A stretch of DNA of 64,000 bases, from the NCBI RefSeq assembly GCF_003574655.1, contig NZ_QNUM01000002.1, positions 682,001-746,000 of the forward strand, given 5' to 3'. The notes beneath the pieces are model-generated. The model ran no database searches, was not told the origin of the DNA, and worked only from the letters and a program-made list of their open reading frames with translations. Both the position numbers and the translations under genes were made by a program. Positions within the stretch are counted from its first letter, which is position 1. Every line of letters begins with the position of its first letter. This document shows, piece after piece, positions 6,061 through 39,485 of this stretch. The DNA comes from Cohaesibacter haloalkalitolerans. Its GTDB lineage: Bacteria > Pseudomonadota > Alphaproteobacteria > Rhizobiales > Cohaesibacteraceae.

Positions 6061-6380
6061 GAAGCGCCCTGTCAATTGCGATTTGACGATGTGTAGCAGG
6101 CTTGAAGCCACCGGGCAACAGCCCCTTGCCATCCCATGAACGGCCCCTGATCTGCCCCTGCTTGGCACCATTCGGCCCCTGCGCGCACAACCTGTGGTGA
6201 TTTTCTGAGCAAAGCTGCATAAAAGGCGACTTCGTTCAAATTTTACCTTTTAATTTAACCGCCCGAACAGACCCGGCGTACTATTAATGTGGCAAGACAA
6301 AAAGGCGCCTGCATGATGCAGACGCCGCTTCTTTATGGCATGTTCGGTTCCATCAGGGATCACGCCAAAGCAGTGTGCAA
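6061..6380. other. Intergenic region with hairpin and possible promoter
   Basis: This 320-base gap separates divergent genes. TTAACC at about 6257 and TACTAT at about 6281, 18 bases apart, could be a weak sigma-70 promoter for the rightward gene at 6381. An imperfect ten-base-pair hairpin with loop TGA lies at 6304-6326. The A-run just left of the hairpin becomes TTTTT on the minus strand, so it looks like a leftward terminator even though no minus-strand gene is seen to its right. Confidence 0.4.
6297..6326 (-). terminator. Possible leftward intrinsic terminator
   Basis: Arms GGCGCCTGCA and TGCAGACGCC (one mismatch) flank a TGA loop at 6304-6326. Read on the minus strand the stem is followed by TTTTTG. 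No minus-strand gene ends here, so it could serve an unannotated antisense or small RNA, or be a leader hairpin of the rightward gene. Confidence 0.4.
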
Positions 6381-7049
6381 ATGAAAAAGCTCATAGCGGT
6401 TTGTATCATATCGGCTTGCTTCATTGCGGGTATCATTCTGACGTATGAAACGCCAGCAAACTCCAACCAGATGCATGGTACACGCCTGAATTCCAACGAA
6501 ATCAGGCAGGCGGAGACAAAGATCACCTCTTTCCTCAAGTCGAACATGGCCTATTTCGACCCCTTCACCGACAAGGTGGAAGTGAACAGCTGCAAGATCA
6601 CTTACCAGTTGAACCGCGCGGGGGATTGCTCCAGCTCGCCAACGGCTCGTTACAGCGAGTTCCAGATCGACCTCAAGGATGTTCAGCAGGTTCGGGTTTT
6701 CGAGAATTCCCGCAACGGGACCGGAGCCTCCGGCTCCATCCGGTTCGAATTCAAGGACAACGTGCAGAAGCGGTTTGACCGTGCCAAGACCCTGTTCAAC
6801 CGCTACAACCGGAACAACACCGGTTATACCGGCTCGATGTGGGCACAGGAAACCCATTCCGCCGAGCAGAATGCCGTGACGGAAGCCGGTCTTGCCGACA
6901 TGCAGAGCTATGCCAAGACGCAGAATTGCTCCAGCAGCATGCAGCAATATCACCTGCCCAAGACTCTCGGTACCATCAGCCTTTCCACCGTTGATCGGAA
7001 CGCCGCCTACAGCCTCAAATCCTATCACGCCAACTGCGTTGATGGTTGA
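6381..7049 (+). CDS. Exported four-cysteine protein of unknown function, paralog 1
   Basis: A 222-residue protein beginning MKKLIAVCIISACFIAGIIL, a signal peptide or single N-terminal anchor, followed by a polar domain. It is a paralog of the next gene. Shared features in order are a K-V-x-x-N/S-x-C-K-I turn, a second cysteine (GDCSS versus QTCSA), a TTxLDI/IDLKD-like strand, an IRFEF/LKFDF strand, an alanine- and glutamine-rich helix with SAEQ, a third cysteine in a QNCSS/QSCTS turn, then HLPKTLGT and a final cysteine near the C terminus. Apart from the signal region these four cysteines could form two disulfides in the periplasm. I do not recognise the family. ATG follows a weak ribosome site. 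Confidence 0.75.
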   Translation: MKKLIAVCIISACFIAGIILTYETPANSNQMHGTRLNSNEIRQAETKITSFLKSNMAYFDPFTDKVEVNSCKITYQLNRAGDCSSSPTARYSEFQIDLKDVQQVRVFENSRNGTGASGSIRFEFKDNVQKRFDRAKTLFNRYNRNNTGYTGSMWAQETHSAEQNAVTEAGLADMQSYAKTQNCSSSMQQYHLPKTLGTISLSTVDRNAAYSLKSYHANCVDG

Positions 7050-7174: not shown

Positions 7175-7228
7175 TAAAACTAATGCACCAAAACAAACAA
7201 ATTATAGTTGAAACTGATATTTGACCCG

Positions 7229-7903
7229 ATGAAAAACAAAGCATTTGTCCTGGCTGCCGCAGTTTTGGCAATCATTCCAGCGCTGACCATGATGGTATTC
7301 TGGCAAACCAAGAGTTTTGCTCGAACCAAGCCGCTGCTTTCAACCGCGCAGGTACAGCAGATGGAGGGAGCAATCCAGGAGACCTTGTCACGGACGCTCG
7401 ACCATAAGGTCTATGGCAGTGAAATCGAAGTATCCGGTTGCAAGATCATCAGCCGGTATGAACAGCCGCAGACCTGTTCTGCCTCCAATGATATCCGGTT
7501 TCAGGAAACCCTGCTGGACATTCGCGAGACATCAGGCGTTTCCTACTCCAGCCTCAGCGCAAACAAGACTTCACGCACCAGCCTGCTGAAGTTTGATTTC
7601 CAACCAGATATCGAGCAGAAGGTGAAAAGCGCCAAGCAGGCCATGTGGACCTATGTGAGCGAAAAGCACGGATTGCGCGGAGCGGCGTGGAACGAATTCG
7701 CAGCAAGCGCCGAGCAGCGCATCATCAAGCAGTATGGCTTTGACAAGATGGGCAGCTACGACATGACGCAAAGTTGTACTTCCGACAAGAAAGTGCGCCA
7801 CCTGCCGGGAAAACTGGGCACATTTGTCCTCAGCGGCGACACCCGCGAGCTGGGCCAGTTGGTCAGGACCTATTACAGCTATTGCGCAACCCCCGCGTCA
7901 TAG
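7229..7903 (+). CDS. Exported four-cysteine protein of unknown function, paralog 2
   Basis: A 224-residue protein starting MKNKAFVLAAAVLAIIPALT, again an N-terminal export signal or anchor. It aligns along its whole length with the preceding gene at low identity while keeping all four mature-domain cysteines, the SAEQ helix and the HLPxKLGTxxLS segment. The start is ATG 7229; the TTG at 7208 lacks a ribosome site. The palindrome-bearing gap suggests it may have its own promoter. Tandem duplication with strong divergence implies an old duplication or two subunits. The function is unknown. Confidence 0.75.
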   Translation: MKNKAFVLAAAVLAIIPALTMMVFWQTKSFARTKPLLSTAQVQQMEGAIQETLSRTLDHKVYGSEIEVSGCKIISRYEQPQTCSASNDIRFQETLLDIRETSGVSYSSLSANKTSRTSLLKFDFQPDIEQKVKSAKQAMWTYVSEKHGLRGAAWNEFAASAEQRIIKQYGFDKMGSYDMTQSCTSDKKVRHLPGKLGTFVLSGDTRELGQLVRTYYSYCATPAS

Positions 7904-7941
7904 GTGAACCATACCCAATCCCGAATACGCGTCTTCGATGA

Positions 7942-7970
7942 TTGACACTCTCGTTCTATAGGCGTACATA
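7942..7970 (+). promoter_or_regulatory. Sigma-70-type promoter of metZ
   Basis: TTGACA at 7942-7947 and TACATA at 7965-7970 are separated by exactly 17 bases. The expected start near 7977 coincides with the 5' end of the SAM-II aptamer, which supports both calls. Confidence 0.8.
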
Positions 7971-7977
7971 ATGTCGC

Positions 7978-8040
7978 ACTTGTGGTCATTTGAGCCGGCC
8001 GGCTTGCCGCCACGTAAAAGAAAGTTGCTAAAAGGTCGGG
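7978..8040 (+). promoter_or_regulatory. SAM-II riboswitch aptamer
   Basis: The segment carries the SAM-II consensus in order: TGTGGTCATTTGAGCC, the GGCCGGCTTGCCGCCAC return strand that closes P1 (GTGG/CCAC), an A-rich joining region and the 3' pseudoknot strand GCTAAAAGG at 8027-8035. SAM-II aptamers are known almost only from alphaproteobacteria ahead of methionine genes, and metZ lies downstream. The 3' end supplies AAAGG, which doubles as a ribosome site for a nine-codon ORF. SAM binding is expected to hide this sequence. Confidence 0.9.
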
Positions 8041-8041
8041 G

Positions 8042-8071
8042 ATGAAAAACTGTCTTTCCCGGCCATACTGA
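8042..8071 (+). CDS. Putative nine-residue leader peptide MKNCLSRPY
   Basis: ATG at 8042 is six bases after AAAGG of the riboswitch and opens a nine-codon frame that stops at 8069-8071. The frame runs over the 5' arm of the terminator hairpin at 8058-8069. Ribosomes reading it would therefore keep the terminator open. The idea that it is translated is inference; the frame, spacing and overlap are seen. Confidence 0.4.
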   Translation: MKNCLSRPY

Positions 8072-8094
8072 AAAGTGTCGCCGGGTTTTATTTT
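8058..8094 (+). terminator. Intrinsic terminator in the metZ leader
   Basis: CCCGGC (8058-8063) pairs with GCCGGG (8080-8085), and an inner ATACT-GAAA-AGTGT stem (8065-8078, one G-U pair) closes on a GAAA tetraloop. TTTTATTTT follows at 8086-8094. It lies 95 bases before metZ, so it must be overridden for expression. GGTCGGG at 8034-8040 can pair instead with CCCGGCC at 8058-8064 as an antiterminator. Confidence 0.85.
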
Positions 8095-8189
8095 GCTCAA
8101 AATCCGGTTGACCAAACGAAAAAGCGCTCTGCCCTCCCGCGCCCCTGGTGCGCTAGGCCGACGGAGCCTGTCAAGAACAGGATTGAGCC

Positions 8190-9386
8190 ATGTCTGAGAC
8201 CAAGAAACCCGAAACCGGTTACCGCCCTGCCACCCAGATGGTCCATGGCGGCGTGATGCGTTCGCAGTGGGGAGAAACCTCCGAAGCGCTGTTCATGACG
8301 CAGGGATATGTCTATGACAGCGCCGAGGCACAGGAAGCCCGCTTCAACGGTGAAGAGCCGGGCTATGTCTATTCACGCTATGCCAACCCTACCGTTTCGA
8401 TGTTCGAGAACCGCATGGCACTGCTGGAAGGCGCTGAAGGCGCGCGCGGTACGGCGTCCGGCATGGCTGCCGTTTCCTCCGCCATGCTTTCATGTGTCCG
8501 GGCTGGCGATCATGTGGTTGCCGCAAGCGCCCTGTTCGGCTCCTGCCTCTATATCGTCTCGGAATTGTTGCCCCGTTTTGGTGTCGAGTGCACGCTGGTG
8601 GATGGCACCAATCTTGAGGAATGGAAAGCGGCGATGCGTCCGAACACCCGCGCCTGTTTCCTCGAAAGCCCGACCAACCCCGTGTTGTCCGTGATCGACA
8701 TTGCCGGTGTGGCCGAGATTGCCCATGAAGCGGGTGCCAAGCTGGTCGTCGACAACGTCTTTGCGACCGCCATGTGGCAAAGCCCGCTGGCGCTCGGTGC
8801 CGACGTGGTCATCTATTCGGCCACCAAGCATATCGATGGTCAGGGCCGCTGTCTGGGCGGGGTCGTGTTGTCGACCGAGCAGTTCCTTGAAGAGGAATTC
8901 AAGGATATCCATCGTCACACCGGACCGTCCCTGTCGCCGTTCAATGCGTGGATCATGCTCAAGGGACTGGAAACCTTCCCGCTGCGCGTCAAGGAACAGA
9001 CCCGCAGTGCAGGTATCCTTGCCGACCGTCTGGCCGAGCACAAAGCCATCGACCGGATCTTCTATCCGGGCCGTGATGACCACCCGCAGGCCGACGTCTG
9101 CAAGAAGCAGATGCGCGGTGGCTCGACCATGGTGGCGCTCAATGTGGCCGGTGGCAAGCAGAAGGCCTTCGAGCTGGAAAATGCCCTCAAGATCATCAAG
9201 ATCTCCAACAATCTGGGTGACGCCAAGAGCCTGATCACCCATCCGGCTACGACCACTCATCAGCGACTCACCGATGACCAACTGGCGGCCGCCGGTATCG
9301 GTCAGGGCACGCTGCGCCTGTCTGTTGGTCTTGAGGATATCGAGGACCTGTGGGACGACTTCGAGCAGGCTCTGGCCACGCTCTGA
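8190..9386 (+). CDS. metZ: O-succinylhomoserine sulfhydrylase
   Basis: A 398-residue PLP enzyme of the Cys/Met metabolism family that joins O-succinylhomoserine and sulfide to give homocysteine in the cytoplasm. The start region YRPATQMVHGG, the YSRYANPTV motif, the GTASGMAA PLP phosphate loop and the Schiff-base lysine K213 in YSATKHIDGQGR are all present; the C-terminal SVGLEDIEDLWDDF is typical. Length fits the family. ATG 8190 is preceded by AGGA with a seven-base gap. Control is by the SAM-II riboswitch and terminator upstream, so high SAM should shut it down. Confidence 0.97.
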   Translation: MSETKKPETGYRPATQMVHGGVMRSQWGETSEALFMTQGYVYDSAEAQEARFNGEEPGYVYSRYANPTVSMFENRMALLEGAEGARGTASGMAAVSSAMLSCVRAGDHVVAASALFGSCLYIVSELLPRFGVECTLVDGTNLEEWKAAMRPNTRACFLESPTNPVLSVIDIAGVAEIAHEAGAKLVVDNVFATAMWQSPLALGADVVIYSATKHIDGQGRCLGGVVLSTEQFLEEEFKDIHRHTGPSLSPFNAWIMLKGLETFPLRVKEQTRSAGILADRLAEHKAIDRIFYPGRDDHPQADVCKKQMRGGSTMVALNVAGGKQKAFELENALKIIKISNNLGDAKSLITHPATTTHQRLTDDQLAAAGIGQGTLRLSVGLEDIEDLWDDFEQALATL

Positions 9387-39167: not shown

Positions 39168-39389
39168 TAGGGAATCCCTAGCCTTCTTGCAAAACAGAAT
39201 ATGGCTATCCATAGCAGAGGAACGCGCGCTGCGTCACCCATCTTGTCGACGGAAAGTCAATTGTTGTTGAAAGCAGCCGCGCTCACCCCGATTGCACGGG
39301 AGCAATGCGAAATGGTCCGTTGGACAGCATTCTCCATCCGGTCTATGGTCCGGCAGACTGATCATTTCGGGGGAAAGTGGGGGATAAGT

Positions 39390-39485
39390 GGAAGGCTGAA
39401 CAGATGACCCGCTCTGTACTCGTTGGGGCTGCTTCCTTCCGGACCTGACCCGGTTGGCGAGGGGAACGTCCATTGCCAACCTTCC
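39390..39485 (-). ncRNA. ffs: Signal recognition particle RNA (4.5S type)
   Basis: The minus strand contains the SRP core GGTCAGGTCCGGAAGGAAGC, the hallmark GGAA-tetraloop and asymmetric loop, flanked by complementary arms. GGAAGG at the 5' end (39480-39485) pairs with CCTTCC at the 3' end (39390-39395), giving about 96 nt. It partners Ffh in targeting membrane proteins. Location before dnaX is common in alphaproteobacteria. Confidence 0.92.

Follow-up and report, generated by a model that had tools for sequence, protein, structure and literature searches.

The window analysed here is a stretch of 64,000 nt on contig NZ_QNUM01000002.1 of Cohaesibacter haloalkalitolerans (family Cohaesibacteraceae, order Rhizobiales). 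It encodes an O-succinylhomoserine sulfhydrylase, MetZ, whose gene is preceded by a promoter, a SAM-II aptamer, a nine-codon open reading frame (ORF) and a stem-loop with a T-run (Table 1). A SAM-II aptamer is thus placed upstream of a gene of methionine/SAM biosynthesis. The start codon of metZ at 8190 lies 95 nt past the T-run and has an AGGA of its own seven nt upstream. The promoter reads TTGACA-N17-TACATA, exactly where an earlier reading of the letters alone (the sequence-only reading) had put it, and the pattern TTGAC[AG]-N17-TA occurs in 19/19 loci of the family. A scan for strict consensus promoters at 7500-8500 lists none.

Table 1. Features of the metZ leader and the gene that it precedes, in window positions.
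Feature	Position	Strand	Basis or remark
Promoter, TTGACA 7942-7947, 17-nt spacer, TACATA 7965-7970	7942..7970	+	sequence
SAM-II (SAM_alpha) aptamer RF00521, full model length	7972..8051	+	61.3 bits, gathering score 36
P1 hairpin, GTGGT 7982-7986 / GCCAC 8009-8013	7982..8013	+	Rfam alignment
P2 5' strand CCGGCC, inside the P1 loop, partner GGTCGG 8034-8039	7995..8000	+	
AAAGGTCGGG, aptamer core, P2 3' strand and antiterminator 5' strand GGTCGGG 8034-8040; Shine-Dalgarno-like	8031..8040	+	
Nine-codon ORF MKNCLSRPY, TGA stop 8069-8071	8042..8071	+	probably incidental
Antiterminator 3' strand CCCGGCC; 8058-8063 also base of the terminator 5' arm	8058..8064	+	
Intrinsic terminator, stem-loop 8058-8085, T-run TTTTATTTT 8086-8094	8058..8094	+	
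metZ, O-succinylhomoserine sulfhydrylase, regulated gene	8190..9386	+	NF005696 and TIGR01325 above cut-off; PF01053

The aptamer, already recognised in the sequence-only reading, is the sole Rfam match up to E=1 within 7904-8300 and the only RF00521 match found in the host genome. A tandem second aptamer behind it was considered and rejected, as this interval holds no further Rfam match. The element has both the P1 hairpin and the P2 pseudoknot. P1 is paired in all cells of the family alignment and invariant across the 19 loci, and is therefore uninformative on covariation. P2 is paired in 97.2% of cells (18 loci), with one-sided changes only and none that is two-sided. RNA from this region is predicted to bind SAM.

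An intrinsic terminator separates the aptamer from metZ. Its 28-nt stem-loop (CCCGGC-C-ATACT-GAAA-AGTGT-C-GCCGGG) has a GAAA loop and one C-C mismatch, and the hairpin alone is predicted at -17.1 kcal/mol, in agreement with the strong GAAA-loop terminator proposed from the letters. The fold of 8040-8100 beats 198 of 200 shuffles (z -2.75); the whole 129-nt leader has no such advantage (z -0.65), its fold being equalled or bettered by 48 of 200. A simple terminator scan at 7500-8500 lists nothing, the presumed reason being the stem mismatch. The terminator is found in 18/19 family loci. Across P1, P2 and the terminator in these 18 loci, 13 cells show two-sided change and the covariation score is 0.189, and none of 500 shuffles reaches either value. 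The two-sided changes are all confined to the upper terminator stem, where they affect three pairs; as many affected pairs arise in 99 of 500 shuffles, and pair types are no more numerous than by chance (matched in 379 of 500). These counts refer to the terminator-bearing loci; including the exception, L008, gives five two-sided pairs, two of them from L008 alone.

L008 belongs to another genus and comes from a draft genome that is 87% complete. It keeps the aptamer and metZ without a terminator hairpin and may be under another mode of control. Another observation concerns TTTGCTCAAAATCCGG (8092-8107), right after the T-run, which is nearly constant in the nearest clade (L012-L019) though it lies downstream of the terminator.

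The sequence-only reading also pointed out that GGTCGGG at 8034-8040 can pair with CCCGGCC at 8058-8064, and the two strands are indeed complementary, with one G-U pair. The segment 8027-8066, which contains this antiterminator hairpin, is predicted at -16.5 kcal/mol. GGTCGG is common to P2, where it pairs with the P1 loop, and to the antiterminator; CCCGGC is also complementary to GCCGGG (8080-8085) in the terminator. When growing transcripts are folded, the antiterminator is part of the best fold for ends at 8066-8082, while the terminator is still incomplete. For the transcript that ends at 8086, the best fold without SAM is already the terminator, and the fold of 7972-8100 has the antiterminator in its best structure and the terminator hairpin in its centroid. 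These mixed folds mean that thermodynamics leave the SAM-free state unsettled. If SAM binding is mimicked by forcing P1 and barring the P2 strands from pairing, the predicted fold is the terminator.

For the antiterminator, comparison with relatives points in two directions. In the 18 family loci, 97.6% of its cells are paired, compared with 21-63% after a shift of one to three columns; two-sided changes are absent, and shuffled partners perform equally well. Across 98 distinct terminator leaders of the order, the pairing score, for which registers were fitted, is 14.1 for real partners and 13.15 for permuted ones, a value that none of 500 permutations attains. This order-wide signal is small: leaders from outside the family give 13.17 against 12.18 (2 of 500 permutations), and those that form six or seven of the seven pairs are no more frequent than under permutation (71, permuted mean 69.2). 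All seven pairs are kept with altered bases in L002 (GACCGGG/CCCGGTC) and L085 (GGCTGGG/CCTAGCT). Duplex energies, computed for 96 of the 98 leaders, are mostly no better than those of shuffled arms (17/96 at 0.05 or less) and are uninformative, since short arms rich in G and C find a pairing partner in almost any sequence.

A survey of the order places this leader among many of its kind. RF00521 is matched in 19/20 genomes of the family and 308/397 of the order, only the best match being used where a genome has several. From these, 139 loci were fetched: 19 of the family, the 30 best-scoring of the order, which over-sample a few families, and 90 that each represent a different genus with a match. 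We parsed 134 leaders, 124 by pattern and ten by looser patterns, and dropped five loci: L082 (pattern absent), L114, L115 and L145 (below the Rfam cut-off, not found) and L144 (partial match). A terminator, called where a hairpin at or below -8 kcal/mol and its T-run lie no more than 160 nt past the aptamer, follows SAM-II in 115/134 leaders and in 22/133 shuffled controls, L008 having no control because it contains N; the calls for a few leaders (e.g. L080, L081, L107, L132) were anchored on an earlier GCTAAA. The downstream protein is MetZ-like (best stretch 50% identical or more) for 122/134 leaders, and 110 of these 122 carry a terminator, so the layout of SAM-II, terminator and metZ is the rule in the sampled order. 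Outside the family of the window the count before a metZ-like gene is 92/103. Twelve leaders do not precede such a gene, and five of them have a terminator.

We conclude that this SAM-II riboswitch is very probably a transcriptional OFF switch for metZ, with the nine-codon ORF most likely a by-product. At low SAM, GGTCGGG would pair with CCCGGCC as the RNA emerges, the terminator would be blocked and polymerase would reach metZ. With SAM bound, the P2 pseudoknot would occupy GGTCGG, the freed CCCGGC would pair with GCCGGG, and transcription would end in the T-run. We infer that such termination takes place in the cell; if transcription starts a few bases before P1, as we assume, the terminated leader RNA would be very roughly 115-120 nt long. 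The sequence-only reading had proposed that SAM binding hides two things. For the antiterminator strand this is consistent with the use of GGTCGG by P2, but the ribosome site is a different matter, as the GG of AAAGG is predicted to be paired without SAM too.

Control of transcription, also anticipated in the sequence-only reading, draws good support from the anatomy and conservation of the leader. That reading had set it against a common view of SAM-II as acting on translation, but transcriptional control is already the majority view in print for alphaproteobacteria. Putative terminators between P2 and the ORF were described early (Corbino 2005, PMC1273637), and Barrick and Breaker (2007, PMC2258182) report SAM-II to be the one class whose most frequent association in alpha- and betaproteobacteria is with regulatory terminators. 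The terminator layout here is like that of these surveyed attenuators, with no defining difference. The metZ switch of Sinorhizobium meliloti is itself published: SAM binding is predicted to cause termination, and the RZ sRNA of about 100 nt is more abundant in rich medium (Scheuer 2022, PMC9373788). An sRNA study of 2008 lists methionine riboswitches at S. meliloti metA and metZ (PMC2573895). The S. meliloti metZ switch and the one described here share the class, the gene, the downstream terminator, the predicted SAM-dependent termination and a short RNA. They differ in genus and in the ATG after AAAGG, which here opens nine codons that end in the terminator arm; the consulted passages of PMC9373788 mention no such leader ORF for metZ. 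Our analysis shows in Cohaesibacter what the literature describes for SAM-II switches, most of which come with a terminator.

The leader ORF is present as the sequence-only reading described it. AAAGG (8031-8035) is followed by six nucleotides and ATG 8042, and codons 6-9 of MKNCLSRPY lie within the terminator 5' arm. By shuffling of the linker of the window, the chance of this ATG is about 0.11, so the ATG alone is unremarkable in one sequence. AAAGG belongs to an aptamer core that recurs across the order and is by itself no sign of translation. In the SAM-free leader its GG is predicted to be paired, with an unpaired probability of 0.07 for each base.

Within the family, an ATG 5-10 nt past the GG of AAAGG occurs in 12/19 loci, compared with 3 and 0 in the neighbouring six-position ranges. 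Nine of the 12 form the nearest clade, the window included. All nine retain the ATG, and seven have nine codons and a stop; the stop is lost in L014, and L012 has an ATG-TGA start-stop. In the eight clade loci other than L012, codons 2-5 vary (K/Q, N/I, C/S/R, L/Q) and codons 6-9 encode the same residues. A hand count over codons 2-5 of these eight finds at least five nonsynonymous and three synonymous changes, where 30 and 6 single changes are possible; such events are too few to judge selection. Family loci outside the clade have frames of 22, 27 or 29 codons, or no ATG at that spacing, and the family as a whole shows frames of 9, 1, 51, 22, 27 and 29 codons.

Outside the family, ATG at ribosome-site spacing is found in 3/97 terminator leaders, with 5 and 4 in the neighbouring ranges; ATG, GTG and TTG together give 30, with 26 and 17 in the neighbouring ranges. 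Relative to linker shuffles of 95 of these 97 leaders, spaced ATGs are fewer than expected (3 observed, 7.95 expected, P 0.036), and an ATG anywhere in the linker occurs 11 times (15.6 expected, P 0.11). The depletion of spaced ATGs in these terminator leaders looks as if spurious initiation were avoided. The same test on nine terminator-bearing family leaders outside the nearest clade (of ten family leaders there) gives 3 spaced ATGs where 0.62 are expected (P 0.017) and 5 with any linker ATG where 1.9 are expected (P 0.0105). This excess in the genus is a hint only, because the test was chosen post hoc and the loci are related.

The ORF, put forward as a possible working part of the switch, therefore does not generalise: its start is rare outside the family, and both frame length and stop vary within the genus. 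Comparison of the sequences does not support it as a conserved element, and no short ORF with a fixed start and stop, as in a leader-peptide attenuator, is kept. Nor are there control codons: the peptide has a single Met, its start, and a single Cys, replaced by Ser or Arg in relatives. A leader peptide with control codons was accordingly rejected, as the ORF has no Met/Cys runs and its codons 6-9 lie in the terminator 5' arm. Relatives that keep the aptamer and lack both ORF and terminator, which the sequence-only reading had named as counter-evidence, are represented in the family by L008 alone under our ATG rule; in most relatives the terminator is retained while the ORF start is missing. 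The ORF is probably incidental and idle, an aptamer core that resembles a ribosome site being followed by a linker that carries an ATG in this lineage.

Translation of the leader could instead be a SAM-gated addition of this lineage, which we regard as unlikely. At low SAM, the 30S subunit would start at ATG 8042, and a ribosome at the stop codon would cover the terminator 5' arm and aid read-through; at high SAM, the pseudoknot would hide the site. Initiation would matter, and the peptide would not. The enrichment of the spaced ATG in the family (12/19 against 3 and 0), its excess over linker shuffles beyond the nearest clade (3 in nine family loci, 0.62 expected) and the AAA right after the start in the window point this way, but the first is met by 3/97 outside the family, if anything a depletion, and the second comes from a post hoc test on related loci. 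The scatter of frame lengths, with one ATG-TGA among them, also argues against such an addition. Initiation would have to compete with the antiterminator, since the predicted SAM-free fold pairs the GG of AAAGG. Likewise unlikely is the possibility that the SAM-II core of Cohaesibacter is a real ribosome site through which SAM controls the terminator twice, by antiterminator pairing and by a ribosome on the terminator arm. At low SAM the ribosome would cover or read through that arm, whatever the peptide; that initiation alone matters would be in keeping with frames so variable in length and sequence. If the lineage did use its leader ORF, one terminator would be under riboswitch control by both RNA pairing and ribosome occupancy.

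Two further explanations draw on S. meliloti metA and appear far less probable. The terminator could be constitutive, making a short RNA only and unchanged by SAM, as the terminator behind the metA riboswitch has no predicted SAM control (PMC9373788). The mixed folding of the free leader would suit this very improbable case, whereas two points speak against it: in 97.6% of family cells the terminator arm is complementary to the P2 strand, and the predicted fold alters once that strand is blocked. Extremely improbable is a translational switch in which AAAGG is a distant standby site for metZ, although the Shine-Dalgarno (SD) sequence of the metA riboswitch is required for a start 74 nt downstream (PMC9373788). 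Here AAAGG is 154 nt from the metZ ATG with the terminator in between, metZ has an SD of its own, on which grounds we rejected standby use, and PMC9373788 assigns the metZ switch to termination. A SAM-dependent terminator accompanied by an incidental ORF thus remains the reading that we prefer.

The leader has partial counterparts in other known systems. The S. meliloti metA riboswitch likewise has an SD-like sequence, a close AUG and then a terminator (PMC9373788); its AUG1 shares the reading frame of the gene, and translation starts at AUG2, whereas here the ORF ends at codon 9. Tandem switches place SAM-II with terminators before SAM-V (reviewed in PMC9481103), and the first element is alike, but 7904-8300 holds no second aptamer. 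B12 riboswitches with translation of an upstream ORF (PMC11260477) also combine a riboswitch with a short upstream ORF; aptamer and organism differ, and ORF translation is only putative here. The S. meliloti attenuators at the upstream ORF of a DUF1127 gene (PMC12218461) and at trpL (PMC10117765) share a short leader ORF and premature termination, but in the Cohaesibacter leader there is no Met/Cys codon run, the ORF is not conserved and the ligand is sensed by RNA. The main text of the S. meliloti ribosome profiling study (PMC10117765) does not mention metZ. Titles and abstract openings searched, a scope that excludes most subscription journals, report no leader ORF in a SAM-II switch, and the single match listed for Cohaesibacter together with riboswitches is an ecological paper.

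The window contains two other items of note. Upstream of the leader, 6375-7049 and 7208-7903 encode adjoining paralogous proteins (28% identity over 184 residues, pair E 2e-26). Their N-termini are hydrophobic, and neither protein is matched by Pfam or NCBIfam. A bacterial small SRP RNA is located at 39388-39484 on the reverse strand (55 bits).
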